From positions 2,114,001 through 2,178,000 of the forward strand of contig NZ_CP085988.1 in assembly GCF_020736365.1 (NCBI RefSeq): a stretch of 64,000 bases of DNA. Direction: 5' to 3'. The stretch comes from Clostridium sp. M62/1. Lineage in GTDB: Bacteria; Bacillota; Clostridia; Lachnospirales; Lachnospiraceae. Positions 1,785 through 17,517 of the stretch are shown here, piece by piece; within the stretch, counting starts at the first letter, position 1, and each line of letters begins with the position of its first letter. A program made the position numbers and the translations under genes. A model generated the notes under the pieces. The model was not told the origin of the DNA. It saw only the letters and a program-made list of their open reading frames with translations, and did not search any database.

Positions 1785-2828
1785 ATGAAAACAGAGGTAA
1801 AACTTACTGCACTCAGCAAGACATCGGGATGAGCGGCAAAGATAGGTCCTGAGACCCTTGCCCAGGTTCTGGGCAAGCTGCCGAAATTTCATGATGATAA
1901 CCTGCTGGTTGGAATTGAGACATCCGATGATGCGGCTATTTATAAGATAACTGATGAAATTGCAATGATACAGACCGTGGACTTTTTCACTCCTATTGTG
2001 GACGATCCCTACATGTTCGGTCAGATCGCAGCGGCAAATTCCCTGAGCGATGTATGGGCCATGGGAGGTGAGCCTGCTGTAGCGCTGAATATTGTAGGCT
2101 TTCCAAACTGTCTGGACCCGGCAATCCTGGGAGAGATCCTTGCCGGAGGCGCGGACAAGGTGAAGGAAGCGGGGGCTGTTCTGGTGGGAGGTCATTCTGT
2201 ACAGGATGATGAGCCTAAATACGGCCTGTGTGTGTCCGGCTTTGTACATCCGGATAAAATTTTCAAGAACTACGGCTGCAGGCCGGGAGACGTACTGGTG
2301 CTGACAAAGCAGATCGGAAGCGGCATTATCAACACGGCGATCAAGGCAGATATTGCTTCCGCTTCTGCTGTAAGAGAGGCGCAGACGGTTATGGCTTCAC
2401 TGAATAAGAAGGCCAAACGGGCTGCAGATGGCTGCCGAATCTCTGCATGTACGGATATTACGGGATTTGGCCTTCTAGGACACTGCGCAGAGATGGCCTC
2501 TGCCAGTGAGGTGACCTTCGAGCTGAAAGTCCGGGACATCGCCTATTTTGAAGATGCCATTGACTATGCTAAGATGGGGCTGGTTCCTGCCGGGACCTAC
2601 AAAAACAGGGGATACTCTGGGCAGAAGGTGGATGCTGGCTCCGTGGAGGAGTACTATCTGGACTTGCTGTACGATCCTCAGACGTCAGGAGGTCTTCTGT
2701 TCAGCGTGGCCAGAGAAGATCTGGGAACGCTCCTTCAGAATCTGGAAAAAGCAGGAATGGACACAGCAGTTTCTGTAATAGGGACAGTTGAACCAAAGAG
2801 CGATAAACTGATCCGGTTGTCTTTATAG
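1785..2828 (+). CDS. selD: selenide, water dikinase (selenophosphate synthetase), selenocysteine-containing
   Basis: SelD makes selenophosphate, the selenium donor for selenocysteine and selenouridine, from selenide and ATP. The 347-residue frame starts at ATG 1785 after AAAGGAG and contains one in-frame UGA at 1830-1832 (residue 16). It lies in the N-terminal loop LTALSKTSG-U-AAKIG, exactly where the family carries its catalytic Cys or Sec. A SECIS-like hairpin follows the UGA. Downstream the ATP-grasp/AIRS-like features are intact: VDFFTP, DVWAMGG, GGHS, TDITGFGLLGH and the DPQTSGGLL end. Automated calling would truncate it to an internal ATG at 1965. Its neighbour is a LysR regulator of a type seen with selenium genes. 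Confidence 0.96.
1830..1862 (+). promoter_or_regulatory. selenocysteine UGA codon with bacterial SECIS-like hairpin
   Basis: UGA at 1830-1832 is followed within 3 bases by a stem-loop. GGCAA (1835-1839) pairs with TTGCC (1858-1862), an internal loop follows, then GGTC (1845-1848) pairs with GACC (1853-1856) around a CTGA apical loop at 1849-1852. The apical loop is 17-20 bases from the UGA and contains a G, as expected for SelB-binding bacterial SECIS elements. Confidence 0.8.
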
Positions 2829-2996
2829 TATCGTGGAGAAAAGCGCAGTGAACCAGCCGTGGGCAGATGCAAAACGGAGAAGCAATAATGGAAGGCTTTG
2901 TGCGGCCGGGCATCTGAAAACAGCGTCTGGATAGCTGCAGAAGTCCGTATTGTTACGAGATGGCTGGCAGGGGAGAAAGCGAAAGGATACATACGG

Positions 2997-3911
2997 ATGA
3001 ATTTAAAACAGTTGGAAGCATTTGTAGAGGTTGCGCAGTCCGGCAGTTTTTCAAAGGCTGCCAGGCGCCTGTACCTTACTCAGCCCACCGTCAGCGCCCA
3101 TGTCCTGTCACTGGAAAAGGAGCTGGATGTGAGGCTGTTTGTGAGAAATACGAAGGAAGTGGGACTGACAGAAGAGGGGCAGAGATTATTTTTTCATGCA
3201 AAGCAGATGGTTGATCTGGAGAAGAAAATAGAGGAGGAGTTTGGTCAGTGGAGAGGAGAGGAAAAGCAGTGTGTTGCCATCGCTGCTTCTACGGTTCCGG
3301 CTCAGTACCTTCTGCCGCCTCTTTTAGCCAGATTTAACATGAAATACCCTGGAGAGCAGCTGAAGATTACGGAGATGGACAGCAGCCAGGTGGTAGAGCA
3401 GATTGCGGAGCGCAGGGCTGATATAGGCTTTACGGGAACTGTGCTGGAAAAGAAGCACTGCAAGTATCTTCCTTTTTACGGGGACGAGATGGTGATTATC
3501 ACGCCCAATACAGAAAAATACAGGAGTATAAAAAACACTTCAAAGGATATCTCCTGGATCAGGAAGGAACATATGATTCTGAGAGAGGAGGGCTCCGGCA
3601 CCAGAAAGGAGGCGGAAAAACAGTTCCGTTCTCTGGGAATTATGCCGGAGGAACTGAATGTTGTAGCCAGCATAGGAAACCAGGAGACAATTAAAAAATC
3701 AGTCATTCAGGGACTGGGAATTTCCGTGATTTCAAGCCTGGCCGTGAGAGAGGAGACGGAAAGCGGAAAAATTTTAGCCTTCCCCATCCCCAGCGAGAGG
3801 GCCGGGCGGGACATTAATGTGGTCTATAACAGGAATTGTCAGCTCTCCCGCTCTGCAAAGAGGTTTTTAAAGACTGTGAAAGAGGTATACAGAGTAAAAG
3901 GGGAAAAATAG
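2997..3911 (+). CDS. LysR-family regulator, selenium-metabolism-associated type
   Basis: A 304-residue LysR-type transcription factor. The winged HTH occupies residues 1-60 (FSKAARRLYLTQPTVSAHV), followed by a CysB-like effector domain of two alpha/beta lobes (AASTVPAQYLLPPLL near residue 95; REEGSGTR near 200). ATG 2997 follows AAAGGA at about 10 bases; the frame is open 99 bases upstream but that stretch does not look like LysR. It lies 168 bases after selD on the same strand. A LysR subfamily found next to selenium genes is recognised in databases, and this placement fits it. Its effector and targets are not shown; selD and the 4355-17517 cluster are natural candidates. Confidence 0.9.
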   Translation: MNLKQLEAFVEVAQSGSFSKAARRLYLTQPTVSAHVLSLEKELDVRLFVRNTKEVGLTEEGQRLFFHAKQMVDLEKKIEEEFGQWRGEEKQCVAIAASTVPAQYLLPPLLARFNMKYPGEQLKITEMDSSQVVEQIAERRADIGFTGTVLEKKHCKYLPFYGDEMVIITPNTEKYRSIKNTSKDISWIRKEHMILREEGSGTRKEAEKQFRSLGIMPEELNVVASIGNQETIKKSVIQGLGISVISSLAVREETESGKILAFPIPSERAGRDINVVYNRNCQLSRSAKRFLKTVKEVYRVKGEK

Positions 3912-3951
3912 GAGATACCTGAGATAACAAAAGATAAGCAAAGATAAAGTT

Positions 3952-4055
3952 TGTTATAATATAACAGGAAAATCAGAGTTATAAATCTGAAAAGACAGCA
4001 GAGACTCTGCAGAGGGAGAACGTGTTTTCCCGGGCTGCAGAGCCTCTGCTTTTTT
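3952..4055 (+). ncRNA. possible short RNA or attenuated leader (extended -10 plus terminator)
   Basis: TG-T-TATAAT at 3952-3960 resembles an extended -10 promoter without a clear -35. About 35 bases later a 15-bp stem with one mismatch (3998-4012 with 4035-4049) ends in six T residues (4050-4055). This could simply terminate lysR, or define a short transcript of roughly 85-90 bases. No gene is seen between 3912 and 4354 apart from these elements. Confidence 0.35.
3998..4055 (+). terminator. intrinsic terminator after lysR
   Basis: A 15-bp stem with one A/C mismatch (GCAGAGACTCTGCAG against CTGCAGAGCCTCTGC), 22-base loop, and T6 at 4050-4055. It separates selD-lysR from the downstream cluster. 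Confidence 0.8.
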
Positions 4056-4354
4056 GCGGAAAATAGCCCGTAAAAGTTCTGCAGTCCTTCTATGAAAATC
4101 AGATATTCTGATTTATAGAAAAAGTTTATAAAGAACATTTTTTATAGAAGTTATGAATTTGCTTTTGGACGGAATCCGAAATATAGTTATATAGTGATGC
4201 GGAAGAAAACAGTGCATCTGTACATATAAGAAAGCGAGAATAAAACACGATGCAGCAGACAGGAATAAAGAAAGCAGAGAAACCGTGACAGACAGAACGA
4301 AAAGGCAGCAGGACTCATCCTGCAAATGGCATGAAAATTAGAGGTTTAAATGCA

Positions 4355-5044
4355 ATGAACAGAAAAAAGATATGGATTTTTGCTGTCTGCATAGGGGCGG
4401 CTCTGATTATAGGGCGGCTGTCAGGAGGGGCAGAGCTGATTCAGAGCCAGAAGGCGGCAGCGATTCTTGAAAAAGCGGTGGAAGAGAACCTGCTTCTGGC
4501 GTCAGGGCTCTATCTTCTGTTCACAGTTTTCGGCAGTCTGTTTCTGGCTCTGCCGGGAGTTACCTTTGCGGTTCTGGCAGGTTTTCTGTTCGGCCCGGTT
4601 CTGGGAACTGCCCTCTGTGTAACAGCCGCCACGGCAGGGGCCTGCGCTGCCTTTCTGGCGGGACGTTTTTTCCTGAGGGACAGTATCCGGCCTCTGGCTG
4701 TGAAGAACAGGTATCTGAAAAAGTGGCTGTTTGACGAAAATGGACGAAATCAGATGTTTGTCCTGATGATCACGCGGCTGATCCCGGTTTTTCCATACAA
4801 TCTTCAGAATTTTGCCTATGGAGTCACAGATATGGGCTTTGTGCCCTATACGGTCGGGTCCTTTCTGTTCATGCTTCCCGGAACGGCAATGTACACAGTG
4901 GGAGTAGCCGGACTGGCAGATGGAAAAAACAGGGCGCTCTGCCTGGGGATAGCGGCCGGACTGGCGGCTTTCGCAGCTGTGGCAGGCTTTTATCTGAAAA
5001 AACGATATGTGGACGGAGAGAGTCGGGAAGAGACAGCAGGATAG
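4355..5044 (+). CDS. TVP38/TMEM64 (VTT-domain) membrane protein, YdjX/YdjZ-like
   Basis: A 229-residue integral membrane protein of the TVP38/TMEM64 (SNARE-associated/DedA-related) family. It has an N-terminal membrane anchor, the VTT-domain core LPGVTFAVLAGFLFGPVLG and the family motif RLIPVFPYNLQNFAYG near residues 140-155, followed by two more hydrophobic helices. ATG 4355 is preferred over ATG 4331 because only it has an AGAGG site (4340-4344). Members are thought to move lipids or small solutes, but no function is proven. It opens the 4355-17517 cluster; a second copy flanks the next gene on its other side, as in E. coli ydjX-ydjY-ydjZ. Confidence 0.88.
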   Translation: MNRKKIWIFAVCIGAALIIGRLSGGAELIQSQKAAAILEKAVEENLLLASGLYLLFTVFGSLFLALPGVTFAVLAGFLFGPVLGTALCVTAATAGACAAFLAGRFFLRDSIRPLAVKNRYLKKWLFDENGRNQMFVLMITRLIPVFPYNLQNFAYGVTDMGFVPYTVGSFLFMLPGTAMYTVGVAGLADGKNRALCLGIAAGLAAFAAVAGFYLKKRYVDGESREETAG

Positions 5045-5061
5045 GACAGGAGATAGGGCCC

Positions 5062-6048
5062 ATGAAGCAGCAGGAAACAACAGGCGCAGACGCCTGCATC
5101 CACTGCCATCTGTGCAGGGACAGGTGCGAATTTTTGAGAAAATACAACATAGATATCGGAGATACAGAGAGGCTGAGAGAGCTTGCCTACAGCTGCTTTC
5201 TGTGTGGAAAATGCTCGGAGATCTGTCCCCTGGGAATTGACGGGAGAAAGATTGTCCTGGATATGCGCAGAGAGCGGGTAGAACAGCAGGGAGGAAAGCT
5301 GAGGGAGAAGGGTACCGGGCTTCTGCTGTTTGAAAAAAAGAGGTATCTCTTTAAGAATTACAGGAATCAGACGGAGGGAAGCGTACTGTTCCCCGGATGC
5401 AATTTCCCGTCCTTCTATCCACAGACTACGAAATATCTCGCAGGACTTCTCAGAAGGGAGGCCGGAATGGGAACGGTATTTGACTGCTGCGGAAAGCCTC
5501 TGGCGGAGCTGGGGCTTGTGGCAGAGGAGGAACGGATTCTGCGGGAACTGGATACCAGGTTCAGGGACAGCAAGATTCAGGAAATCGTCACGCTCTGTCC
5601 CAACTGCTTCCACTTTTTAAAGGGCCGTCTCCATGTGAAGGTGACAGGGATCTATGAAAAGCTGAGAGAGCTGGGCCTCGGACGGCAGATAGAGGAAGAA
5701 CTTTCTGTCTTTCTGCCGTGCCCGGACAGAGCTGACAGGGAGCTTCTGGGGCAGATTTCCCATTTCCTGGACAAGCCTCCGGCCTCCTGCGGGCAGGGGC
5801 AGTGCTGCGGCCTGGGAGGCGGCGCATCCGGCCGCGAAAGGGAACTTTCAGACAGGATGGCAGGGAAACTGGGAGAGGGGAAACACCTGGCTGTCTACTG
5901 TGCCTCCTGCGCGGGAAGCCTGATCAGAAAGGGATACGGGGACACAGAACATATCCTGGTAAAAATACTCGGAACCGGAGAGAGGGCAGATACCGCCCAT
6001 TCTCTGGCAAACAGGATGAAATTTAAGTACTGGAAAGAGGACGTGTGA
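5062..6048 (+). CDS. [4Fe-4S] protein with CCG (HdrD/GlpC-like) domains
   Basis: A 328-residue cytoplasmic iron-sulfur protein. Two classic 4Fe-4S motifs are present at C12-C15-C18-C22 and C45-C48-C51-C55 (YSCFLCGKCSEICP). Two cysteine-rich CCG repeats follow: PGCNF...DCCGKPL near 110-155 and QCCGLGGG...CASC near 250-280. This is the architecture of heterodisulfide-reductase subunit D, GlpC and LutA-like electron carriers. It lies 17 bases after the first TVP38 gene and overlaps the second by one base (TGATG). In E. coli the equivalent position between ydjX and ydjZ is held by a ferredoxin-like protein (YdjY). Substrate unknown; a redox role acting on a thiol- or selenol-type substrate is inference. 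Confidence 0.85.
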   Translation: MKQQETTGADACIHCHLCRDRCEFLRKYNIDIGDTERLRELAYSCFLCGKCSEICPLGIDGRKIVLDMRRERVEQQGGKLREKGTGLLLFEKKRYLFKNYRNQTEGSVLFPGCNFPSFYPQTTKYLAGLLRREAGMGTVFDCCGKPLAELGLVAEEERILRELDTRFRDSKIQEIVTLCPNCFHFLKGRLHVKVTGIYEKLRELGLGRQIEEELSVFLPCPDRADRELLGQISHFLDKPPASCGQGQCCGLGGGASGRERELSDRMAGKLGEGKHLAVYCASCAGSLIRKGYGDTEHILVKILGTGERADTAHSLANRMKFKYWKEDV

Positions 6049-6749
6049 TGAAAAAGAGACGCAACTGGATAAAACGAATTTTGCTGCTGGCCGTAATTGC
6101 GGCCATAATTGGAGCCTGGGCTCTGATCCCTTCTGTGAAGCAGGGGGTGAATGAGGTGCTCTTTATGTTTGCCAGCGGGGATTTTACAGCAGTCAGGGAG
6201 TTTGTTGCATCCTACGGGGGATATGCGGCGCTTATATCCTTTCTGCTGATGGTTTTTCAGTCTGTGGCAGCGCCTCTTCCGGCCTTTCTGCTGACCTTTG
6301 CAAATGCCAGTCTCTTCGGATGGTGGCGGGGAGCTATTCTCTCCTGGACGAGTGCCATGGCGGGAGCGGCCGTCTGCTTTGTCATTGCCAGGGTACTTGG
6401 CAGAGACGCGGCTGAAAGGCTGACAAGCCGGACAGGCCTCAGGCAGATTGACACTTTTTTTGAGAAATATGGAAAAAATACCGTTCTCATCTGCCGCCTG
6501 CTGCCTTTTATGTCCTTTGACATTGTGAGCTATGCAGCGGGGCTTACCTCCATGTCTTTCGGAGCGTTTTTTATTGCCACCGGAATCGGGCAGCTTCCGG
6601 CGACTCTTGTCTATTCCTATGTAGGGGGAATGCTGACCGGAGGGGCAAAGCTGTTTGTCACAGGGCTGTTCATTCTGTTTGCCCTGTCAGCTCTGATTGT
6701 GCTGGCCCGCAATATCTATATGGACAGGCAGAAAAGAGAACAGGCATGA
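6048..6749 (+). CDS. second TVP38/TMEM64 (VTT-domain) membrane protein
   Basis: A 233-residue paralogue of the protein at 4355. An N-terminal basic segment and membrane helix are followed by the VTT domain (APLPAFLLTFANASLFGWW) and the motif CRLLPFMSFDIVSYAAGLTSM near residues 150-170, then two C-terminal helices. ATG 6048 overlaps the preceding stop (TGATG) and has AAAGAGG upstream; a GTG at 6045 is less likely. Its stop overlaps the next gene (ATGA), so the cluster is translationally coupled. Two TVP38 proteins around an Fe-S protein suggest a membrane complex or a transport step, but this is inference. Confidence 0.88.
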   Translation: MKKRRNWIKRILLLAVIAAIIGAWALIPSVKQGVNEVLFMFASGDFTAVREFVASYGGYAALISFLLMVFQSVAAPLPAFLLTFANASLFGWWRGAILSWTSAMAGAAVCFVIARVLGRDAAERLTSRTGLRQIDTFFEKYGKNTVLICRLLPFMSFDIVSYAAGLTSMSFGAFFIATGIGQLPATLVYSYVGGMLTGGAKLFVTGLFILFALSALIVLARNIYMDRQKREQA

Positions 6750-8080
6750 GACAGGCAATTATTATTTTCACGAGAATCCCAGTGCGGGGAAAGACGAAGA
6801 CCCGGATGATGCCTCATCTGACACCGGAACAGTGTGCCATGCTCCACTCCTGCTTTCTCAGAGATATTGTCAGGGTGTGCGAGTCTGGAAATGCTGAAAT
6901 CTTTGTGAGCTATGCGCCGGAGGATGGGGAGGTCCTGAGGCTTCAGAAACTGATGGGTAAGAAGAAGGAGTATCTTGTACAGCGCGGAAAAACTCTGGGG
7001 GAGAGGATGCTTCACGCCTTTGAGGATGTGTTTGAGAGAGGAGCACAGGCGGCTGTACTGATTGGCACAGATGTGCCGGAGATCGGGGAGAGCTGTATAA
7101 GAAAGGCATTCTGGACTCTTCAGGAAAAGGATCTTGTATTCGGCAGGACGGCCGATGGGGGATATTATCTGGTGGGGATGAAAAAACCTCACAGGGAGGC
7201 GTTTGGGCTTGGAGAGTACGGCCACGGCAGGGTGCTTGAGGAAACACTGAGAGAATTAAGGAGCGCAGGGCTGAGCGCCGGGTTCACGGAAACGCTGCAC
7301 GATTTGGATACTCCTGATGATTTGCGGGGCTTCAGGGAGAGAATGCGCAGGGAGGAAAGGCTGAAAAAAAGTGTGACAGGGCGTTATCTTGCAAAGATCA
7401 GCAAAATTTCTGTTATCGTTCCTGTTTACAATGAGAGAAAGACCATAGAGAGCCTGCAGAAGGAGCTGTGGCCGTATAGGAACAGCTGTGAAATCCTTTT
7501 TGTAGACGGTGGGAGCACAGACGGTACTGCAGAGATGATCTGGCCGGAATTTACTGTGCTTTGCTCCAAAAAAGGGCGGGCCGCCCAGATGAATGAGGGG
7601 GCGAAAAAGAGCAGCGGCGATATTTTGTTTTTCCTTCACTGCGACAGCGAGCTTCCTGAAAAGCCGTTGGAGGAGATACGGCGGGTGATGAGGGATTACC
7701 GGGCAGGATGCTTCGGCATTGCCTTTCATTCCAGGAATTTTTTCATGTTTACCTGCCGCGTGATCTCCAACCACCGGGTAAAGGACAGAAAGGTGATGTT
7801 TGGGGATCAGGGAATATTTGTAGACAGAGATCTGTTTTTTGAGGTGGGAATGTTCCCGGAGATCCCGATTATGGAAGACTATCAGTTTTCTCTGACCTTA
7901 AAGGAAAAGGGAGTCCGCCTGGGGATGGCAGGAAAACGAATTTACACCTCTGACAGAAGATTTCCCAAGGGAACGATTCCGAAACTGCGCGTGATGTGGA
8001 GCATGAACCGTCTGCGAAAAATGTACCGGGAGCAGGTGCCCATAGAGGAAATAGCCAGGCTGTACCGGGATGTGAGGTAA
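6746..8080 (+). CDS. fused DUF2064 (TIGR04282-like) and GT2 (TIGR04283-like) glycosyltransferase
   Basis: A 444-residue fusion. Residues 1-200 form a DUF2064/CofC-like nucleotide-binding domain (IIIFTRIPVRGKTKTRM, GTDVPEI, FGRTADGGYYLVG). Residues 215-440 form a GT-A family 2 glycosyltransferase (ISVIVPVYNERKTI, FVDGGSTDGT, and the metal-binding region LHCDSELP). Both halves resemble the families named in databases as arsenosugar-biosynthesis glycosyltransferases, usually separate neighbouring genes. No arsenosugar radical-SAM gene (arsS) is present here. The start overlaps the upstream stop (ATGA). Product unknown; a sugar conjugate of a toxic or scarce element is speculation. Confidence 0.87.
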   Translation: MRQAIIIFTRIPVRGKTKTRMMPHLTPEQCAMLHSCFLRDIVRVCESGNAEIFVSYAPEDGEVLRLQKLMGKKKEYLVQRGKTLGERMLHAFEDVFERGAQAAVLIGTDVPEIGESCIRKAFWTLQEKDLVFGRTADGGYYLVGMKKPHREAFGLGEYGHGRVLEETLRELRSAGLSAGFTETLHDLDTPDDLRGFRERMRREERLKKSVTGRYLAKISKISVIVPVYNERKTIESLQKELWPYRNSCEILFVDGGSTDGTAEMIWPEFTVLCSKKGRAAQMNEGAKKSSGDILFFLHCDSELPEKPLEEIRRVMRDYRAGCFGIAFHSRNFFMFTCRVISNHRVKDRKVMFGDQGIFVDRDLFFEVGMFPEIPIMEDYQFSLTLKEKGVRLGMAGKRIYTSDRRFPKGTIPKLRVMWSMNRLRKMYREQVPIEEIARLYRDVR

Positions 8081-8187
8081 GAAAAAAACGGGGGCAGCAG
8101 AAAAAAACAACCAAAGACAGCAGAAGAACAGCGAAAAAACAGCAAGAGAACAGCAGGAAAACAACAAGAGAACAGCAGAAGAATCAG
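8081..8187 (+). repeat. purine-rich low-complexity stretch with AACAGCA(A/G)-type repeats
   Basis: Between the glycosyltransferase stop and the kinase start lie 107 bases dominated by A, G and C, with the unit AACAGCAR repeated several times (for example near 8147, 8171). The kinase frame stays open through it, which would give a Lys/Gln/Arg-rich leader of no domain value. I treat it as untranslated spacer. Confidence 0.4.
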
Positions 8188-9333: not shown

Positions 9334-9337
9334 GGAC

Positions 9338-9928
9338 ATGGAAAAGAATACAACAAAACAGAGAGACAGAATCCGCTTTATGCGGGCGGCCGTGTTTGTG
9401 GCGGCTGCGTCAGTGATTACGGCAGTTACAGCGATTTTGCCGATGGTGGCATCTGTGGGAAAGCTGATCTATGCCAATAATGTTGCGGTGGTTTTAGTGA
9501 GTATGGGGCTTGGGCCGGTGGGAGGTGCATGCTACGCAGCGGCAGCCAGCGCTGTGCTCAACAACATCGGTATGGGAAGCGGCGTGATTCCCTATGTACT
9601 TTTATTTCAGATGGCGGAAGCGGCGGCAGTGGGCATCCTATGGCACGGAAAAAGATTCCACATTGTCCGGTACCTGCTGACCGTTCTGGGAGGGACTTTT
9701 CTGCTTAAGCCCCTTTCCTTTCTGCTCTATTACGGGTTTAACAGGCAGTTTCTGGGAGGACTCAGCCTCGGCGAATATATGGCGGGAAGCTATGAGAATT
9801 ATCTGAGGACAGGATGGACAGATACCCTTCTTTTGTACGCGACGGGACTTTTAACGGGATACCTGTTAAAATTACTCATAGATAACACTTTTGAAAAAAG
9901 GAACAAAACGAAAAATGAAAGGAGTTAG
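9338..9928 (+). CDS. ECF-transporter S-component-like membrane protein
   Basis: A 196-residue polytopic membrane protein with about five to six hydrophobic helices. A long N-terminal Ala/Val-rich helix (VFVAAASVITAVTAILP) is followed by the ECF-S-like segment MGLGPVGGACYAAAASAVLNN with its small-residue packing motif. ATG 9338 lies 4 bases after the kinase stop. No ECF ATPases are in the window, so it would share a general module encoded elsewhere or act alone. The following lipoprotein gene starts 6 bases later. The substrate cannot be read from the sequence; family assignment is moderate. Confidence 0.6.
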   Translation: MEKNTTKQRDRIRFMRAAVFVAAASVITAVTAILPMVASVGKLIYANNVAVVLVSMGLGPVGGACYAAAASAVLNNIGMGSGVIPYVLLFQMAEAAAVGILWHGKRFHIVRYLLTVLGGTFLLKPLSFLLYYGFNRQFLGGLSLGEYMAGSYENYLRTGWTDTLLLYATGLLTGYLLKLLIDNTFEKRNKTKNERS

Positions 9929-9934
9929 GAAACG

Positions 9935-11437
9935 ATGAGAAAGTGGAGAGTATTGATGGCAGCAGCAGCTTCGGCACTTGTGACGGCAGCATGCTCTGCT
10001 CCGGCGCCGGATTCCCAGACACAGGCGCAGGAGACGAAAGAGGCCCAGGAGGAGACACAAAGGGCTTTGGGAGAAGAAGAGGCCCAGGCAGAGACAGGAA
10101 CGGTTACAGCTGAGGAACTGGCAGATACGGAGGCTCAGATTATTGACATCCGTTCAGAGGAGCAGTATATCGGCTGGACGACAGAAGAAGGGCCCGGAGG
10201 ACATATTAGGGGTGCTGTGGACTTCCCTGAATCATGGCTTTCCATTGATCTGGAGAAGGATTCCGCTATAGGGACAACTATGGACAGGGAGCTGGAGCGC
10301 CGCGGACTGGATCCGGCAAAAGAGACGGTTCTGTACAGCAATTCTGCTGTATCTGAGGAGACTGTCCAAAAGTACAGGGAAATCGGTTTTGAGAATCTGT
10401 CTGTCCTGGAGGGCGGATATGAGGCTTATGTGGAGGCCGGAGGCGAAACAGAGAGCCTGGAGCATTATGAGATGTACGTACATCCTCAGTGGGTGCAGGA
10501 TCTGGCAGACGGAAAAACGCCGGAAACCTTTGACGGAGGAGACTTCCAGATTGTAGAGGTATCGCTGGCCAGTGAGGAGGGAGAGTATGACAAGGGCCAT
10601 ATCCCGGGAGCAATTAATGTGAATGCAGATGAGATCAATCATATTCCCGGCCCGAGAGCTCTTGCCGATTATGAGGTAATTCCCATGGAGGAGCAGCTCA
10701 AGTTCTGGAACCGCCCCTCTGACGAGGATCTTCAGAACATCCTCGAGGGACTGGGAATCACAAAAGATACCACAGTCGTGCTCTACGGAACAACGGCAGC
10801 GACGACAGCTGCTGCAAGAGCCGGACTGCTTATGAAATACGCAGGAGTGGAGGATGTGCGCCTGTTAAACGGTGGAAAGACGCTCTGGGCCCTGGAAGGC
10901 CGGGCCTGGGATACTGAGGCACATCAGCCGGAACAGGCAGATTTCGGCACAGAGGTTCCGGCTAACCCTGACATCATCTTCGATTATGAGGAGGAGCTTC
11001 AGGTGGTGAATGATGAAAATTCAGTGATCGCTTCTATCAGAAGCTGGGAGGAATATCTGGGAAATATAAGCGGCTACACCTATATCGGAGAGGCAGGCGA
11101 TATTGCAGGCTCCAGGTTTGGCTATGCCGGTTCTGATCCGTACAGCATGGAAGACTTCCGCAACGTGGACAATACGATGTTTAATTACGAGATGATGGAA
11201 GACAGATGGGAGCGCTGGGGAATTACGCCGGATAAGACGGTGGTATTCCACTGCGGAACAGGCTGGCGTGCAAGTGAGACGTATTTTTATGCCTATGCAA
11301 TGGGCTGGGAGGATATCCATATGTACGATGGAGGCTGGTACGAGTGGCATAAAAGACCTGAAAGCCCTGTAAAGGAGAAGGGCCTTCCGGAGGATGCGCC
11401 GGAGCAGGAGCCTCAGGAGTTCTTTATTGCGGAGTAA
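9935..11437 (+). CDS. YnjE-like triple-rhodanese lipoprotein (sulfurtransferase)
   Basis: A 500-residue exported lipoprotein with a signal peptide and lipobox ending at C20 (VTAAC), then an acidic, Gln-rich linker. Three rhodanese modules follow at about 60-150, 190-310 and 340-480. Only the third has an active-site Cys (C440 in HCGTGWRAS). The first has Ser (near S135) and the second Gly (near G285) at that position. This one-active-of-three pattern is that of E. coli YnjE, a thiosulfate:cyanide sulfurtransferase. The protein would sit outside the cytoplasmic membrane and handle sulfane sulfur or an analogous selenium species. An AAAGGAG site precedes the start. Confidence 0.88.
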   Translation: MRKWRVLMAAAASALVTAACSAPAPDSQTQAQETKEAQEETQRALGEEEAQAETGTVTAEELADTEAQIIDIRSEEQYIGWTTEEGPGGHIRGAVDFPESWLSIDLEKDSAIGTTMDRELERRGLDPAKETVLYSNSAVSEETVQKYREIGFENLSVLEGGYEAYVEAGGETESLEHYEMYVHPQWVQDLADGKTPETFDGGDFQIVEVSLASEEGEYDKGHIPGAINVNADEINHIPGPRALADYEVIPMEEQLKFWNRPSDEDLQNILEGLGITKDTTVVLYGTTAATTAAARAGLLMKYAGVEDVRLLNGGKTLWALEGRAWDTEAHQPEQADFGTEVPANPDIIFDYEEELQVVNDENSVIASIRSWEEYLGNISGYTYIGEAGDIAGSRFGYAGSDPYSMEDFRNVDNTMFNYEMMEDRWERWGITPDKTVVFHCGTGWRASETYFYAYAMGWEDIHMYDGGWYEWHKRPESPVKEKGLPEDAPEQEPQEFFIAE

Positions 11438-11446: not shown

Positions 11447-11488
11447 CCTATTGAAACGGTCTATAGCTATATCAGATATTTCAATAGG
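11447..11488 (+). promoter_or_regulatory. inverted repeat upstream of internal promoter
   Basis: A perfect 10-bp inverted repeat (CCTATTGAAA at 11447-11456 with TTTCAATAGG at 11479-11488) with a 22-base loop, only 8 bases before the -35 box of the next promoter. It has no T-run, so it is more likely an operator or weak terminator than an intrinsic terminator. Confidence 0.4.
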
Positions 11489-11495
11489 GACGGAC

Positions 11496-11524
11496 TTGAA
11501 GGTGAAACGGATAGCCCGTATAAT
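11496..11524 (+). promoter_or_regulatory. internal promoter before the double-rhodanese gene
   Basis: TTGAAG (11496-11501), 17-base spacer and TATAAT (11519-11524), 33 bases before the gene start. It could drive the rhodanese-YnjBCD part of the cluster separately from the upstream part. Confidence 0.65.
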
Positions 11525-11556
11525 CAATGAGGATAAAATTCAGGAGGAACTGTATC

Positions 11557-12471
11557 ATGAGAAAGAAATTAACAGCGGTTTTATTAGTATCTGCAGCGGC
11601 AGCAATGCTGGCCACAGGCTGCGGCTCTAAGGATGCCCAGAGTACGCAGGCAGTTTCCGCGGCGGAAACTGCGGCCCAGACAGCTTTAAAGGCACCGGAG
11701 AGCGAAGCACAGTCAGAGGCGGCAGGAGAGGAAAAGACAGCAGAGGGCAGCGAATACCAGTTTGTCGCTCCGGCTGATGCAGTGGAGGCTGCAAAGACAG
11801 GAGAAACCCATGTTCTTGATGTCAGGGAATGGGGAAATTATGTAGAAGGCAGAGTGGCAGGCTCCGAATGGTGCCCGATTTTCCCGCTGGAGGATGAATC
11901 CCTTGCCGAGAATATGACTGCCTACGCTAAGGAGAATCTGTCTGACGGAAAAGAGATTTATATTATCTGCAACAGCGGACAGAGGGGCGCTCAGAAAGCC
12001 ACAGGAGTTCTGGAGGATGCAGGAATTGACGCTTCTCTGATCTATACGGTAGAGGGAGGCGCTAAGGCTCTGGCTAAGGAGAAGGACGCGCTTACCACAA
12101 ACCGCACAGAGGAAAGTATCGACTGGCAGTATGTGACAGGAAAGGAAGCAGTGGAGGCTGTGGGAAATTCTGATATTCAGATTCTCGACGTCCGCGATGA
12201 TGATACCTATGCAAAAGGACATCTGGAGGGCTCCCTTCAGGTTGGATTAAAGGAGATCGAGGATTCCAAGGCTCAGACAGAGATGTATGAGCTGGCAGTA
12301 AATGAGATGAACAAGGAAAAACCAGTTTATCTGCTCTGCTACAGCGGAAATAACTGCGCCAAGACAGCTGTCTCTGTCATGAAGGATGCAGGTTTTGACA
12401 CAAATAATCTGTTTATTATCGAAAATGGCGCGAAGGATGCCGATGTACAGGCAGCCTTTGTGACAGAATAA
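11557..12471 (+). CDS. lipoprotein with two catalytic rhodanese domains
   Basis: A 304-residue lipoprotein (lipobox ATGC, lipidated C22) with a low-complexity Ala/Glu linker and two single rhodanese domains. Both carry a Cys at the active-site position: C138 in YIICNSGQRGAQ and C261 in YLLCYSGNNCAKTA. Each also shows the VLDVRxxxxY entry motif. Start ATG 11557 follows CAGGAGG. It lies between the triple-rhodanese lipoprotein and the ABC binding protein, and has its own promoter. Together the two proteins place four to five rhodanese modules on the outer face of the membrane beside an importer, which points to persulfide- or perselenide-type chemistry (inference). Confidence 0.87.
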   Translation: MRKKLTAVLLVSAAAAMLATGCGSKDAQSTQAVSAAETAAQTALKAPESEAQSEAAGEEKTAEGSEYQFVAPADAVEAAKTGETHVLDVREWGNYVEGRVAGSEWCPIFPLEDESLAENMTAYAKENLSDGKEIYIICNSGQRGAQKATGVLEDAGIDASLIYTVEGGAKALAKEKDALTTNRTEESIDWQYVTGKEAVEAVGNSDIQILDVRDDDTYAKGHLEGSLQVGLKEIEDSKAQTEMYELAVNEMNKEKPVYLLCYSGNNCAKTAVSVMKDAGFDTNNLFIIENGAKDADVQAAFVTE

Positions 12472-12486
12472 GATGAGACAGCGGAA

Positions 12487-13797
12487 ATGAAAAAAACAAC
12501 GGAAATGAAAAAGACTGCTGCAGGATGGATTCTGACTGCTGTTCTGGGACTTCTGGCGCTTACAGGCTGTTCAGGGACAGGGAAAACAGAGCTTGCAGAC
12601 AGCGGCAAAGCAGGCACAGAGGCATCAGTAAAAGCGTCGGGGGAAGAGAGCCTTCCGGCTCTTGAGGACATGAGCTTTGAAGAAATGAAGGAGGCTGCCA
12701 GAGGCACAACCGTCACCTTTTATGGATGGGGCGGAGATGAAAAACTCAACGACTGGCTGGACCATTCCTTTGCCCCTGTGATGAAGGAGAAATACGACAT
12801 CACCATGGAGCGTGTCCCCATGGACATTGATCAGGTGCTGAGCCAGCTTGCCGGAGAAATCCAGGCAGGCGGGGAAAACGGAAGCATTGACATGATCTGG
12901 ATTAACGGAGAAAACTTCCAGTCAGCAAGGGAAAACAATCTGCTGTACGGCCCCTTTACGGACAGACTGCCTAATTTCTGCGAATATGTGGACGAAACAT
13001 CCAAGGATGTGACTCTTGATTTTGCTTACCCTGTGGAAGGATATGAAGCCCCCTACGGGAAAGCGCAGATGGTGCTGATTGCCGACACGGCGGTAACCCC
13101 TGATTTGCCGGGGAATGCCAGGGAGTTTAAAGAATTTGTCCAGAAATATCCCGGCATGGTGACGTATCCGGCCCTTCCCGACTTTACGGGCAGCGTGTTC
13201 GTCAGAAACATCATCTATGAAATCTGCGGCTATGAACCTTTTCTAACCATGGAGGCAGATAAGGAAACGGTGCGGGAGGCTGTCAGGCCGGCGATGGAAT
13301 ATTTGAGGGAGCTGAATCCCTGGCTGTGGAATCAGGGTCAGACCTTCCCCGACTCCTCTACCACCCTCGACAACATGTTTGCCGATGGGGAGGTTGTCCT
13401 GAGCATGACCTATGACGCCTACAGCACAGCGCTGAAAATTGAGGACGGCACCTACACAGAGACGACAAAGAGCTTTCTGTTTGACGGGGGAACCATCGGA
13501 AACACAAACTTTATGGCCATTGCCGCCAATTCCGGCAATAAGGCCGGGGCCATGGTCGCCATTAACGAGATGCTTTCTCCTGAAATACAGGCGGATCGCT
13601 ATGAAACGCTGAGGGTGATTCCGGTTCTGGATTACGAAAAGCTGTCAGAGGAGCAGAGGGCAGCCTTTGACGGGGCAGAGCTGGGAGAGGGGATCATTCC
13701 CCAGGATGAGCTCTTGTCAAGGCGGCTTCCGGAAATGCCGGCGCAGCTGGTTCCCATTATTGAGGAAATCTGGATGGAGGAAGTAGTAGGAAAGTAA
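12487..13797 (+). CDS. YnjB-like ABC transporter substrate-binding lipoprotein
   Basis: A 436-residue extracellular solute-binding lipoprotein. The lipobox ALTGC gives lipidated C28 (or C22 if the ATG at 12505 is used). The mature part begins with TVTFYGWGGDEKLNDWL and continues with IDMIWINGENF and APYGKAQMVLIAD, features of the COG4134/YnjB branch of the binding-protein fold rather than thiamine or spermidine binders. It lies 15 bases after the rhodanese gene and overlaps the permease by one base (TAATG). The ligand of YnjB is not established. The start has a weak ribosome-binding site, so translation may be coupled. Confidence 0.85.
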   Translation: MKKTTEMKKTAAGWILTAVLGLLALTGCSGTGKTELADSGKAGTEASVKASGEESLPALEDMSFEEMKEAARGTTVTFYGWGGDEKLNDWLDHSFAPVMKEKYDITMERVPMDIDQVLSQLAGEIQAGGENGSIDMIWINGENFQSARENNLLYGPFTDRLPNFCEYVDETSKDVTLDFAYPVEGYEAPYGKAQMVLIADTAVTPDLPGNAREFKEFVQKYPGMVTYPALPDFTGSVFVRNIIYEICGYEPFLTMEADKETVREAVRPAMEYLRELNPWLWNQGQTFPDSSTTLDNMFADGEVVLSMTYDAYSTALKIEDGTYTETTKSFLFDGGTIGNTNFMAIAANSGNKAGAMVAINEMLSPEIQADRYETLRVIPVLDYEKLSEEQRAAFDGAELGEGIIPQDELLSRRLPEMPAQLVPIIEEIWMEEVVGK

Positions 13798-14723
13798 TGA
13801 AAAACAAGCTGGCACCATATTTATTGCTGGCTCCGCAGATCCTGCTTGCCATACTGTTTGTGGCAGGCCTGATAGCTGGAATCACCCAGAGTTTTGGGGT
13901 GATTCCAGCTTTTGGGTTGACGGAGCCGACACTTCGGTATTACCGGGAGATCTTTCTGAGGCCGGATCTGATGGAGTCTGTCCTCTTCAGCCTGAAAACT
14001 GCCGGGCTTTCTGCGCTTCTTGCAACTGCAGGAGGCGTATTTTTCTGCGGGCTCTGTGTGATGGGAGGGAAAACCAGGGGACTTTCCATGAGGGTGATAG
14101 AGCTTCCCATCATTGTCCCCCATGCAGTGACGGCGCTGTTTCTCATAAGCCTTCTGTCGAAAAACGGCATTGCAGCCCGCATCTTATACAGTTTCGGGTG
14201 GATAGAAAACCAGCAGCAGTTTCCCGCCCTGATCTATGATCAGAACGGAGCAGGCATTATTCTGGGCTATCTGTGGAAGGAGCTCCCGTTTATGATCTAT
14301 TTTGTTATCTCACTGATGGCAAATATCAACAGGAGTCTTGGAGAGGCTGCCGTCAACCTGGGAGCGGCGCCCCGGACTGCCTTTTTCAAAATTACCCTTC
14401 CGCTGTGCAGGAATACGATCATGAGCGGATTTCTGATTATCTTTGTGTTCGCTCTGGGGGCCTATGAGCTGCCTATGCTGCTTGGCGCCACAAAGCCCAG
14501 GGCTCTGCCTGTACTGGCCTATCAGCAGTATCTTCACCCGGATCTGAGAAACCGCCCCTATGCCATGGCGCTGAACGGGATTATTATCGTTATCTCACTG
14601 CTGAGCGCAGCTCTGTATTATGCACTGATGAACGGGCAGATGCGAAGGCTGAAGCTCTCGGGGGAACAGAGAAGGACTTCAGGCGGGAGAGGGGGGAGGA
14701 GCAGATGGATAAAGCCCAGATAA
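13797..14723 (+). CDS. ABC transporter permease, first YnjC-like half
   Basis: A 308-residue binding-protein-dependent permease with about six membrane helices. The ATPase-contact EAA loop is visible as GEAAVNLGAAPRTAFFKITL near residues 183-202. ATG 13797 overlaps the stop of the binding-protein gene. E. coli YnjC is a single protein made of two fused permease halves; here they are separate genes, this being the first. A strong GGAGGAG site for the next permease lies inside its 3' end. The Arg/Gly-rich C-terminus is cytoplasmic. Confidence 0.88.
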   Translation: MKNKLAPYLLLAPQILLAILFVAGLIAGITQSFGVIPAFGLTEPTLRYYREIFLRPDLMESVLFSLKTAGLSALLATAGGVFFCGLCVMGGKTRGLSMRVIELPIIVPHAVTALFLISLLSKNGIAARILYSFGWIENQQQFPALIYDQNGAGIILGYLWKELPFMIYFVISLMANINRSLGEAAVNLGAAPRTAFFKITLPLCRNTIMSGFLIIFVFALGAYELPMLLGATKPRALPVLAYQQYLHPDLRNRPYAMALNGIIIVISLLSAALYYALMNGQMRRLKLSGEQRRTSGGRGGRSRWIKPR

Positions 14724-15562
14724 ATAAAATGCAGATGGATAAAACACAGATGAAAAAGAGGCCGGGAATTGTCACGAACAGCCTGACTGCAGTTCTAATG
14801 GCAGTGATACTGATTCCGGCTCTGACGCTTCCTGTCTGGATTTTTGCAGAGCGGTGGGCCTGGCCTGACCTGGTTCCCCAGGTATTTTCTCTTCGGTCTG
14901 TGAGGGAGGTCTTTGGACGCGGAGGAGAGCTGGGGCGTCTCATGCTCTCCAGTGTCCTCCTGTCGGCATCAGTGGCCTTTCTGTCAGCTGTCATAGGGAC
15001 TATGACGGCCAGAGCCCTTGTATTTTACAGCTTTCGCGGCAAGGCTCTGGTGAGCTTTCTGACAGTTCTGCCGTTTATGGTACCGTCTACGGTGTTCGCC
15101 ATGGGTGTTCAGCTCCTGTTCATCCGAATGGGACTGAACAATACTGCTGCAGGGGTGGCCATCTCCCATCTGATCTGTTCCCTGCCCTATGCAGTGCGTC
15201 TGATTGCAGAGGGGACAAAGGCCGCAGGGCGTTCCCTGGAAGAGCAGGCGCGGACTCTCGGGGCATCGCCCTGGCAGGCATTCCGGCGGATCTCTCTGCC
15301 GGTTATGGCCCCGGTGATCCTGTCTGCAGCCGGCATGGCTTACATTGTTTCCTTCAGCCAGTATTTCCTCACACTGCTGATTGGAGGCGGTCAGGTCAGG
15401 ACTTTTTCAGTTGTCATGGTCCCCTATCTGCAGAGCGGGGACCGGAATATGGCCGCCATCTACAGCGCGCTGTTTCTGGCAGTGACGCTTCTCGTGTTCG
15501 GGCTGTTTGAGCGGATTGCCAGACGGATGGCAGGAGACATGGAGGGAGGTTTTTATGAATAG
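14705..15562 (+). CDS. ABC transporter permease, second YnjC-like half
   Basis: A 285-residue permease overlapping the previous gene by 19 bases. The start at 14705 is supported by GGGAGGAGC just upstream, although further ATGs follow within the repetitive N-terminus (MDKAQINKMQMDKTQMKK). About six helices are seen, with the EAA-loop EEQARTLGASPWQAFRRISL near residues 180-199. It forms the translocation pore with the preceding subunit and pairs with the ATPase that follows, which overlaps it by 8 bases. Confidence 0.88.
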   Translation: MDKAQINKMQMDKTQMKKRPGIVTNSLTAVLMAVILIPALTLPVWIFAERWAWPDLVPQVFSLRSVREVFGRGGELGRLMLSSVLLSASVAFLSAVIGTMTARALVFYSFRGKALVSFLTVLPFMVPSTVFAMGVQLLFIRMGLNNTAAGVAISHLICSLPYAVRLIAEGTKAAGRSLEEQARTLGASPWQAFRRISLPVMAPVILSAAGMAYIVSFSQYFLTLLIGGGQVRTFSVVMVPYLQSGDRNMAAIYSALFLAVTLLVFGLFERIARRMAGDMEGGFYE

Positions 15563-16580
15563 AGAAGACAGCGGGCTGTCGGTGGAACAGCTCAGGGTCA
15601 GCCTTCAGGGAGAGGAAATTCTCCGCGGACTCAGCCTGAGGGCGGAGCGGGGCGCCTTTGTTTCTCTGCTGGGCGAGTCCGGCTGCGGGAAAAGTACGCT
15701 TTTAAAGAGCATCGCCGGTCTTATAGAGGCCGCGTCAGGGGAAATACGGCTGGACGGAAGATCCCTTCTCACTGTCTCCCCTGAAAAGCGGGGAACGGTA
15801 ATTGTATTTCAGGATTTAAGACTGTTTCCACACATGACGGTGGAGAAAAACATCGCCTTTCCCATGGAGCTTCGCGGCCTTTCGAGAGAACAGCGGAAGA
15901 AGGAGGCTGAGAGGCTGTTAGATGAGGTGCAGCTTACCGGGTATGGGAGGAGAAAGATCAGGGAACTTTCCGGCGGGCAGATGCAGCGGGTAGCTCTGGC
16001 GCGGGCGCTGGCAGCGGAGCCGTCCGTTCTACTCCTGGACGAACCCTTTTCCGGTCTGGACGAGAGGCTGAGAGCCGAGATGGGAAGCCTGGTAAGAAGG
16101 ATCCACCGGGAAAGGAAAATTACGACCATCCTCGTTACCCATGACAGCAGGGAGGCTCTCCAGATGTCAGACAGAATCGTGCTGATGAAAGAAGGGAGTG
16201 TCCTTCAGTGTGGTACCCCTGAAGAGCTTTTCTGGCGCCCGGCGTCCTGGGAAGCGGCAGAATACTTCGGACGGGCAAATTATCTGAGGGGAACTGCGCA
16301 GGGAGGAATCTTTGACTGCGGCTTTTTAAAGGCCCCTTTGTCTGCTTCCGGCAGGGAAGGGGAGTGCGAGGCAATGGTCCGGCCCTTCTCAATTAAGCTG
16401 ACAGGGCAGGGGGATTTCCTTATTCGCGAGATTATTTTTATGGGAGAGACGGCGGAAATTCTCCTTGACACGCCTCAGGGGGAGATCCGCAGTCAGATGA
16501 TGAGCCGGGAGTTTGAGCGGCTCGGTTTAAAAAAAGGAAGCAGGGCAGGGATAGAAATTGAAGAAGCGTATTGTATTTGA
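15555..16580 (+). CDS. ABC transporter ATP-binding protein, YnjD-like
   Basis: A 341-residue ATPase. Walker A is GESGCGKST (40-48), the Q-loop is VFQDLR, the signature is LSGGQMQRVALARAL, Walker B is VLLLDEPFSGLDE and the switch is VTHDSREAL. A C-terminal regulatory (TOBE-like) region follows residue 240. ATG 15555 follows GGAGGT; the longer upstream frame overlaps the permease and is not needed. This completes a binding protein, two permeases and an ATPase. It is longer than E. coli YnjD because of the C-terminal domain. Confidence 0.92.
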   Translation: MNREDSGLSVEQLRVSLQGEEILRGLSLRAERGAFVSLLGESGCGKSTLLKSIAGLIEAASGEIRLDGRSLLTVSPEKRGTVIVFQDLRLFPHMTVEKNIAFPMELRGLSREQRKKEAERLLDEVQLTGYGRRKIRELSGGQMQRVALARALAAEPSVLLLDEPFSGLDERLRAEMGSLVRRIHRERKITTILVTHDSREALQMSDRIVLMKEGSVLQCGTPEELFWRPASWEAAEYFGRANYLRGTAQGGIFDCGFLKAPLSASGREGECEAMVRPFSIKLTGQGDFLIREIIFMGETAEILLDTPQGEIRSQMMSREFERLGLKKGSRAGIEIEEAYCI

Positions 16581-17517
16581 CTGTGACTGTACCATGGGAG
16601 TTGAAGGATGTGATGTGGACGACGGCCTGGCTCTTCTCTATCTGCTGGGATGTCCGGAGGCAGAGCTGCTTGGAATTACAGCTTCCTACGGAAACAGCAG
16701 GATGGATGTGGTATGGGACACAATAGGAACCGTGGTGAGAGAGACTGGTCTGACCGGAATTCCGGTCAGGAGGGGGGCAGAGACAGCCGGCTGCAGCGGC
16801 AGTGAGGCTGCCGATTTCCTGGCCGAGACGGTGAACCGCTATCCGGGGGAGGTATCAGTTCTTGCAACCGGCTCCCTTACAAATCTGATGGGAGCGTGGA
16901 AGCGGGATCCCGGATTTTTTGAAAAGGCGGGAGAGATTGTGCTGATGGGAGGGATCACAGAGCCTCTTCTGTTTGAGAAAAAGAAGATGGATGAGCTGAA
17001 CTTTTCCTGCGACCCCCAGGCTGCCTTTCTCGTTCTGACGGAAGGGAAGCGGGTGTCTGTCATAACCGGGAATAACTGTCTGAAAGTATTGTTTACAAAA
17101 GAGGATTACCGGGACAATCTGTTTCTGGAGACAGAGGGCGCGGCAGAATACATCAGAAAAAAGACGGATTACTGGTTTCAGTATAATGAGGAAGACTACG
17201 GGATACAGGGATTTTACAACTGGGACGTGACGGCGGCTGTCTACCTGATGCGCCCGGAGCTGTTTGAGGACAGCCGGGAAACATTCTGCCTTTCAGCCGG
17301 GGATTTGAAAACCGGATATTTAAGAAGGGAAGGAATGGAAACAGAAGAAAACACCGGGGACTGCAAAAGCAGGGCAGAGGAAGATAAAAGGGAGAGAAAA
17401 AAGAAGTGCCTGTTAAATCTTCCGGCTATCCGGGAGGAGAGGGCCTTTAAGAATGAGATATACAGAGCCTGGAAGCAGGTGAGAATGCCGGCGGGGAATG
17501 CCGGGCACACGGAATAG
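16558..17517 (+). CDS. inosine/uridine-preferring nucleoside hydrolase family protein
   Basis: A 319-residue IUNH-fold protein that would cleave an N-glycosidic bond to ribose. The Ca-binding entry motif, usually DxDxGxDDxxAL, is interrupted: DCDCTMGVEGCDVDDGLAL (residues 8-26). Downstream LATGSLTNL, EIVLMGG and the FSCDPQAA metal-site region are present. The start is a TTG at 16558 inside the end of the ATPase gene; the later ATG would delete the first Asp pair. About 50 C-terminal residues are highly charged. Being last in the importer operon, it may hydrolyse an imported nucleoside-like ligand. Substrate uncertain because of the altered motif. Confidence 0.8.
   Translation: MKKRIVFDCDCTMGVEGCDVDDGLALLYLLGCPEAELLGITASYGNSRMDVVWDTIGTVVRETGLTGIPVRRGAETAGCSGSEAADFLAETVNRYPGEVSVLATGSLTNLMGAWKRDPGFFEKAGEIVLMGGITEPLLFEKKKMDELNFSCDPQAAFLVLTEGKRVSVITGNNCLKVLFTKEDYRDNLFLETEGAAEYIRKKTDYWFQYNEEDYGIQGFYNWDVTAAVYLMRPELFEDSRETFCLSAGDLKTGYLRREGMETEENTGDCKSRAEEDKRERKKKCLLNLPAIREERAFKNEIYRAWKQVRMPAGNAGHTE

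Follow-up and report, generated by a model that had tools for sequence, protein, structure and literature searches.

The window analyzed here, a 64,000-nucleotide stretch of the Clostridium sp. M62/1 genome, carries near its start a selD gene for selenophosphate synthetase (1785..2828, + strand) with an in-frame UGA at codon 16. The encoded SelD scored 388 bits against TIGR00476 when the TGA was read through, and 327 bits when the first 60 residues were removed (cut-off 125). A hairpin was found 3' of this UGA at 1857-1877, although the folding of this stretch was no better than that of shuffled sequences (z -1.1). SelB was found in the source genome (359 bits, cut-off 242), which thus has the selenocysteine-decoding trait. 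Adjoining selD is a regulator gene (3000..3911, + strand) whose product belongs to NF040786, the 'selenium metabolism-associated LysR' family (LysR_Se; 414.5 bits, cut-off 250). The 443 bp that follow (3912..4354, + strand) contain a terminator-like site at 4032-4049 and a promoter-like site at 4166-4195, both being consensus matches only. An operator common to several sites was considered and rejected; the perfect palindrome upstream of selD (1678-1705) is present as a single copy in the window. Rfam and tRNA scans of the whole window gave no matches, and base composition along the window had no sharp island border.

Thirteen genes, all on the + strand, follow selD and the LysR_Se gene and make up the module at 4355-17517, with predicted functions in import, in the handling of sulfur or selenium, and in the chemistry of sugars or lipids. 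The first three encode a YdjX-like TVP38/VTT protein (4355..5044, 34% identity to YdjX), a Fer4 and CCG iron-sulfur protein (5062..6048) with a partial match to NF045663 (99 bits, cut-off 530), and a second, YdjZ-like TVP38/VTT protein (6045..6749). In some other genomes the iron-sulfur protein forms a fusion with an NAD(P)H oxidoreductase. The next gene (6746..8080) encodes a fusion of a DUF2064 nucleotidyltransferase-like domain and a GT2 domain, which matched TIGR04282 (190 bits, cut-off 134) and TIGR04283 (231 bits, cut-off 182). It is followed by an APH-fold protein (8059..9333, start codon uncertain), in which a Glu replaces the usual Asp of the catalytic loop, and by a 197-aa membrane protein of no family (9335..9928), ECF S-component-like by eye only.

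The remaining genes encode two predicted lipoproteins with rhodanese domains, an importer and a hydrolase. The triple-rhodanese lipoprotein is YnjE/EanB-like (9935..11437, loop CGTGWRASE), and the double-rhodanese lipoprotein (11527..12471) has a Cys in both loops, as judged by eye. The YnjB-type solute-binding lipoprotein (12487..13797) scored 454.7 bits against NF008633 (cut-off 203), and a PDB sequence search with it gave 4edp alone, as a weak match. Two ABC permeases, each like half of YnjC (13797..14723 and 14705..15562), and a YnjD-like ABC ATPase (15555..16580, 36% over 198 aa) complete the importer. Against the Sao transporter family NF040729 (SaoA), the ATPase scored 179 bits, under the cut-off of 360. 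The last gene encodes a nucleoside hydrolase (16558..17517, PF01156) with its Asp motif kept. The earlier note had placed all of the genes that it named on one strand, and every one of them was indeed present on the + strand; it had missed the DUF2064-GT2, APH-fold, 197-aa membrane protein and nucleoside hydrolase genes. The one-base overlap that it described is seen at a single junction, the measured overlaps being, in order, 4, 4, about 22, 1, 19, 8 and 23 bases.

The module is not a genus-wide feature, as YnjB was found in 0 of 7 congeners. In the congener stretches near yceD, the selD, importer and rhodanese genes were unmatched and just a weak LysR and ATPase-superfamily match was seen, one of the seven stretches being uninformative in that it stops about 450 bases past yceD. 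The presence of SelD nevertheless goes with that of ynjB, as the earlier note had anticipated. In a 299-genome sample of the phylum, SelD was found in 24 of the 26 ynjB genomes (source genome included) vs 174 of the 273 others, and in the family of Facklamia hominis in 8/8 genomes with ynjB vs 16/68; the sampling lay outside the Gammaproteobacteria, and the counts ignore phylogeny. SelD was also present in 40 of 42 genomes having the module type with the GT, APH and nucleosidase genes, and in 43 of 50 named genomes with YnjB. The nine YnjB genomes without an over-cutoff SelD were G169, G268, G466, G469, G489, G497, G498, G502 and G503; several of the last seven are MAGs, and in G502 part of a SelD was seen where a contig ends.

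The same sample bears on a reading of the module as arsenosugar-type biosynthesis, after the NCBI names of TIGR04282 and TIGR04283. Like the arsenosugar system (ArsM/ArsS), the module has both of these transferase-family domains above cut-off, and the nucleosidase, kinase-fold and glycosyltransferase proteins could fit an adenosyl-sugar route. However, ArsS (TIGR04167) was above cut-off in only 6 of the 299 genomes, none of them among the 26 with YnjB, and the source genome has no over-cutoff ArsS (best E 1.4e-8). Because ArsS is missing, we reject this pathway as highly improbable.

To place the module among its relatives, 108 distinct YnjB loci were compared in stretches of up to 10 kb on each side (67 stretches were at least 19 kb long); at two loci, L035 and L036, the YnjB-like genes were under the family cut-off. 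Conserved adjacency of selD was ruled out at this range, since selD was inside the stretch at 0 of the 108 loci, yet 7/8 genomes of the F. hominis family have selD and ynjB on one contig, 12-50 kb apart. Selenium genes in general, by contrast, were found beside YnjB clusters in several lineages: selenium-linked markers, with LysR left out, occurred at 22/108 loci vs 0/40 random regions (p=0.001), although these counts overstate independence because the positive loci include close kin (four Facklamia, two Aerococcus and three C. clostridioforme-like). The gene-neighbourhood expectation of the earlier note was therefore borne out for selenium genes but not for selD itself. The markers were YedF (6), split YedE-like (7), Sec-lyase-like (8), PrdB-like (6), SelA (2) and SelB (1), and 86 of the 108 loci had none. 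YedF at L058 was identified by HMM (219.5 bits, cut-off 110), the YedE-like matches were under cut-off and TsuA (thiosulfate) was matched too, and LysR_Se was at or above cut-off in five of the six neighbours tested. The genomic association of YnjB loci with selenium genes is thus above background.

In Facklamia, ynjE-ynjB is accompanied by a Sec-lyase-like gene and by LysR_Se (300 bits, L111 and L124), and selD-yedF-selB-selA is found 14-50 kb from the module, on the module's strand. In the Aerococcus MAGs G493 and G495, a single strand carries selD-yedF-selB-selA-GT-APH-PrdB-like(UGA)-rhodanese-YdjZ-YdjX-GT-YnjE-YnjB. The importer also occurs in other company: Peptoclostridium has nucleoside hydrolase-YnjBCCD alone, a Sinorhizobium plasmid has ynjBCD alone, and two alphaproteobacterial plasmids have YnjBCD with a CDP-alcohol transferase, neither selenium nor rhodanese genes being annotated within 8-10 kb. 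Selenium is thus not necessarily what the importer core carries.

The PrdB/GrdB-like protein with an in-frame TGA, found at 6/108 loci (Facklamia L111, L122 and L124, Aerococcus L123 and L125, and Tissierella L131), raises the possibility that the module depends on selenium and does not provide it. Its read-through is conserved (SPG-U-YICHQS), and it scored 180 bits (L111) and 157 bits (L123) against TIGR04483, under the cut-off of 300. The module would then import and reduce the substrate of a selenoenzyme, this one or another, and selenium genes would travel with it because the selenoenzyme needs selenocysteine; a reductase would suit the Fe-S/NAD(P)H oxidoreductase and the importer. We consider this unlikely, as the PrdB-like protein is absent from the stretch at the window module and at 102/108 loci (a locus-level look only), loci that lack it do have YedF, YedE-like and LysR_Se genes, and the exported rhodaneses are left unexplained.

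Alternatively, the module might acquire thiosulfate or sulfane sulfur for thiolation, for example of molybdopterin, and the selenium link would arise secondarily, because S and Se share much of their chemistry or because the genes are neighbours in blocks that move horizontally. Rhodaneses and YeeE/TsuA-like neighbours suit sulfur equally. E. coli YnjE is annotated as a molybdopterin synthase sulfurtransferase, ydjXYZ-ynjABCD and ynjE are included in an FNR regulon table, and MobA/MobB/MoeA-like genes were identified by eye upstream at L008. The recurrence of the selenium-only markers SelA, SelB, YedF and LysR_Se, together with the SelD co-occurrence above background, makes this explanation rather improbable.

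What the sequence data show is the gene content, the conservation of the block and its recurrent link to selenium genes, both in genomic position and in occurrence across genomes. We propose, with moderate confidence, that in Bacillota the module at 4355-17517 is accessory to the selenium-utilisation trait and most likely helps to acquire or traffic a reduced chalcogen (selenium, perhaps together with sulfur) for use by SelD. On the outer side of the membrane, the exported rhodaneses would take over sulfane-type Se/S; the TVP38 proteins, together with the YnjBCD importer, would carry it, or an organic carrier of it, inward, and the Fe-S/CCG protein would reduce it to selenide, which SelD would convert to selenophosphate; LysR_Se may tune expression. 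A scheme of capture, import and reduction had been suggested in the earlier note, and its selenium linkage is supported in Bacillota, but it gives no account of the nucleoside hydrolase, the APH-fold protein and the transferase. In our proposal, the nucleoside hydrolase, APH-fold and DUF2064-GT2 proteins may build or break down the organic carrier.

A more specific version, a dedicated bacterial system in which Se (or Se/S) is taken up on a special lipid, is quite doubtful. This lipid, with a polar head group, would be made by either of two routes that exclude each other, namely a CDP-alcohol phosphatidyltransferase, or the nucleoside hydrolase, APH-fold protein, DUF2064 transferase and GT2 acting in that order. 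The exported rhodaneses would load sulfane-type Se/S onto the lipid, which would be flipped by the paired TVP38/DedA proteins; in the cytosol, an Fe-S/NAD(P)H reductase would release selenide from it to SelD, under the control of LysR_Se.

Some published observations do not favor the proposed accessory set. COG0398 DedA proteins have been described as linked to aerobic metabolism (PMC10127716), which gives no pointer to a role in anaerobes. According to passages of a study of M. maripaludis (PMC11097638), five putative transporter loci were deleted and none was required for any selenium species tested, with some mild effects; one of the five is a PgtC/PhnU-type operon. The same 2024 study says that a dedicated selenium transporter is not known from any organism, and two reviews note that a specific, high-affinity system for selenium transport has yet to be identified in prokaryotes (PMC9312934, PMC13188914). 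The importer, rhodanese, TVP38 and Fe-S block is a concrete, testable gene set and a candidate for this missing bacterial selenium uptake. The block is conserved and accompanies selD, selA, selB, yedF and LysR_Se in groups as far apart as Clostridia and Aerococcaceae. It also suggests what the E. coli ydjXYZ-ynjABCDE genes, mostly annotated without a function, and TVP38/DedA proteins might do.

The closest known arrangement is the E. coli ydjXYZ-ynjABCDE(-ynjF) cluster, whose order had been given correctly in the earlier note. Homologues of YdjX, YdjZ, YnjB, YnjC, YnjD and YnjE occur together in the module, and as judged from blastp (E 1e-3) the homology is specific: the second TVP38 protein shares 58% identity with YdjZ (232 aa aligned), the triple rhodanese 36% with YnjE (426 aa), and YnjB 35% with its E. 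coli counterpart (373 aa). YdjY and YnjA had no match among 15 window proteins at the same threshold, which rules out YdjY as the identity of the module's Fe-S protein. E. coli thus has YdjY, YnjA and a CDP-alcohol transferase (YnjF) that the module block lacks, whereas the module has the CCG Fe-S protein, DUF2064-GT2, APH-fold protein, second rhodanese and nucleoside hydrolase instead, and its permease is encoded by two genes rather than one ynjC. The E. coli selD does lie a few genes away, six after ynjE, but on the opposite strand, and the claim that linkage was kept in two distant phyla was overstated.

The triple rhodanese matches both YnjE (2WLR, 278 bits) and EanB (6H98, 248 bits), the anaerobic ergothioneine synthase, and the CGTGWR loop is common to them. 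Unlike EanB, it is a predicted exported lipoprotein with a higher score to YnjE, and its likeness to EanB is one of overall similarity only.

Among the titles, abstract beginnings and passages covered by a literature search, the cluster was not found named as a selenium system. The LysR_Se, YedE, YedF and DUF3343 set is that of Lin et al. 2015 (PMC5322559), whose available passages leave YnjBCD, TVP38 and the nucleosidase and APH proteins unnamed, and whose STRING table pairs one glycosyltransferase with YedE. As in the set described in those passages, LysR_Se adjoins selD in the window, and YedF and YedE-like genes lie beside related modules.

The genes that the earlier note had assigned to a candidate selenium or sulfur acquisition island were all confirmed, at their positions and on the plus strand. 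Its gene list was incomplete, as four of the thirteen module genes (4355-17517) were not mentioned: a DUF2064-GT2 fusion (GT; 6746-8080), an APH-fold protein (8059-9333), a 197-aa membrane protein without a family and a nucleoside hydrolase. The LysR regulator belongs to the curated selenium metabolism-associated family NF040786 (LysR_Se), with a score of 414.5 bits against a cut-off of 250. Since the 443-bp gap between the LysR gene and the module has a terminator-like and a promoter-like site (consensus matches only), they may be transcribed separately. The in-frame TGA of the window selD is codon 16. Selenocysteine decoding is expected in this genome, because a hairpin lies 3' of the selD UGA codon, in a stretch whose folding is no better than that of shuffled sequences (z -1.1), and SelB is encoded in the genome according to a profile search. 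The region 1640-1790 also contains a long, perfect hairpin (z -4.9) with T7 directly after it; it is situated upstream of selD, past a promoter-like site, and could be an attenuator or the terminator of an upstream transcript.

YnjB over the cut-off was sparse in the phylum (26/299 genomes, the window's own genome counted). Within the family, 5/150 genomes had it, every one of a different genus, and within the genus one of eight. All eight carry yceD. No matches to selD, the importer or the rhodanese genes were found near yceD in the congener stretches, one of which ends just past yceD, and the two matches obtained there (LysR and ATPase) were ordinary superfamily hits. SelD exceeded the cut-off in three of the eight, own genome included, and in the other two it was at sites without the module. 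Hence, among these eight genomes the block is particular to that of the window.

Neighbourhoods of YnjB, reaching at most 10 kb in either direction, were taken from 31 stretches of sampled genomes and the best 80 of 248 named ones, and their genes were labelled by blastp and tblastn. Counts refer to 108 distinct loci, 67 of them with stretches of at least 19 kb; Gammaproteobacteria were outside the sample. None of the 108 stretches examined contained selD, which counts against the simplest form of the earlier claim. The expected neighbourhood association was nevertheless recovered with other genes, since selenium genes other than selD recur beside YnjB. At least one selenium marker besides LysR was found in 22 of 108 loci, a count inflated by close relatives, compared to 0 of 40 random 20-kb regions drawn from eight contigs only (p=0.001). 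These markers were YedF (6 loci; L058 by HMM, 219.5 bits against a cut-off of 110), Sec-lyase-like genes (8 loci; in L072, 423 bits for TIGR01977 against 377, and 375 for SclA against 525), split YedE-like genes (7 loci; those of L011 score under the family cut-off), selA (2 loci), selB (1 locus) and a PrdB-like gene with an in-frame TGA and conserved read-through (6 loci). LysR_Se at or over the cut-off stood beside YnjB in L111, L124, L011, L083 and L099, while the LysR of L012 was under it.

The read-through motif of the PrdB/GrdB-like gene is SPG-U-YICHQS (L111:19163-19879, L122, L124, L123, L125 and L131). Its hosts are Facklamia, Aerococcus and Tissierella, and the two proteins scored were both under the PrdB cut-off. 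The YedE/YeeE-like transporter is encoded as two adjacent genes in L009-L012, L014, L015 and L020; in L011 and L020 the next genes on that strand are those of an oxidoreductase/Fe-S protein, over the NF045663 cut-off in L011, and of the YnjB operon. One study describes orphan selD genes that have an ABC ATPase gene and a gene resembling cysteine desulfurases in their vicinity (PMC5029168), and Table 1 of another lists the Methanococcus maripaludis operon MMJJ_09770-09790, with a PgtC-like binding protein and a PhnU-like permease, as ~4-6 log2 up on selenium depletion (PMC11097638).

Linkage to selenium genes is clearest within the F. hominis family, which NCBI calls Aerococcaceae. Two Aerococcus MAGs carry selD-yedF-selB-selA-GT-APH-PrdB-like-rhodanese-YdjZ-YdjX-GT-YnjE-YnjB on one strand. 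In F. lactis and F. languida, selD-yedF-selB-selA lies at the opposite end from LysR_Se and a Sec-lyase-like gene. The selD-to-ynjB distances in seven genomes of this family are 12, 12, 14, 18, 26, 27 and 50 kb; in the eighth (G553) the genes are ~420 kb apart and both apparently interrupted. In comparisons that all ignore phylogeny, SelD exceeded the cut-off in 8/8 YnjB genomes of this family versus 16/68 others (p=4e-5), and in 24/26 YnjB genomes of the phylum sample versus 174/273 others (p=0.002). It was also present in 43 of the 50 named YnjB genomes checked out of 80.

Two gene-set types were distinguished. YnjB was accompanied by two or all three of GT, APH and nucleoside hydrolase in 61 of 108 loci, with TVP38 in 54 of these, the Fe-S protein, alone or fused to an oxidoreductase, in 45 and a rhodanese in 28. 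A CDP-alcohol phosphatidyltransferase replaces this set in 19 other loci; the two were never together (0/108, Fisher p 1e-8), and 28 loci had neither. By type, in 50 named and 25 phylum-sample genomes, SelD was found in 40/42 genomes with the GT/APH/nucleosidase set, 15/18 with the CDP-alcohol type and 11/15 with neither; the first differs from the 174/273 at p=1e-5, again ignoring phylogeny and with the two sets drawn differently. CDP-alcohol-type neighbours of YnjB are annotated in Ilyobacter, Cetobacterium, Metabacillus, Roseivivax, Aliiroseovarius and Klebsiella plasmid records. Two alphaproteobacterial plasmids have YnjBCD and the CDP-alcohol transferase but lack any annotated rhodanese or selenium gene in the surrounding 8-10 kb, and therefore membership in the YnjBCD family does not imply an importer specific for selenium. 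Other neighbours of YnjB were a TVP38/FAD-oxidoreductase fusion next to IS26 and resistance genes (L200, a Salmonella plasmid record with a YnjB-like gene), MobA-, MobB- and MoeA-like genes, recognised by eye, immediately upstream of the operon (L008:5122-8625), and a 147-aa small membrane protein without a family near the YnjE-like gene (L059:3663-4106; about six loci).

Rhodaneses are able to carry sulfane S or Se, and rhodanese perselenide supplies SelD in vitro. The exported triple rhodanese of the window keeps its Cys loop, as do most of 44 relatives in a pattern scan. The GT2 half of the DUF2064-GT2 protein weakly resembles sugar transferases that act on polyprenyl phosphate (ArnC, DPMS). 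The usual catalytic-loop residue of the APH fold is Asp; in this subfamily Glu ([N/S]TE[L/V]N) stands at that position in 49/49 aligned rows (47 distinct), so the protein may have unusual chemistry. In the nucleoside hydrolase, the Asp pair is conserved in 51/51 rows (49 distinct). A nucleoside hydrolase, a kinase fold, a nucleotidyltransferase-like domain and a glycosyltransferase, for which a CDP-alcohol transferase can stand in, suggest that a lipid head group is involved. Together with the paired TVP38 proteins, this leads to a novel, speculative scheme in which the gene set would make the head group of a lipid carrier and the TVP38 pair would take part. YdjZ is taken to be in the COG0398 DedA subfamily, whose members are proposed phospholipid scramblases that in some cases form fusions with pyridine nucleotide-disulfide oxidoreductases; the same source describes a tie between them and aerobic metabolism (PMC10127716), which offers no suggestion of a role in anaerobes.

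The ydjXYZ-ynjABCDE block of E. coli K-12 is as the earlier note gave it, and selD there lies on the opposite strand, six genes past ynjE. An FNR regulon table includes ydjXYZ-ynjABCD and ynjE, and direct activation is stated for ynjE (PMC3688515). In sequence comparison with E. coli, YdjY and YnjA had no counterpart among the module proteins of the window. The window homologues are 58% identical to YdjZ, 34% to YdjX, 35% to YnjB and 36% to YnjD, and the triple rhodanese, which has the CGTGWR loop, is 36% identical to YnjE across 426 aa. In E. coli the gene adjoining ynjE, ynjF, carries a CDP-alcohol-type annotation.
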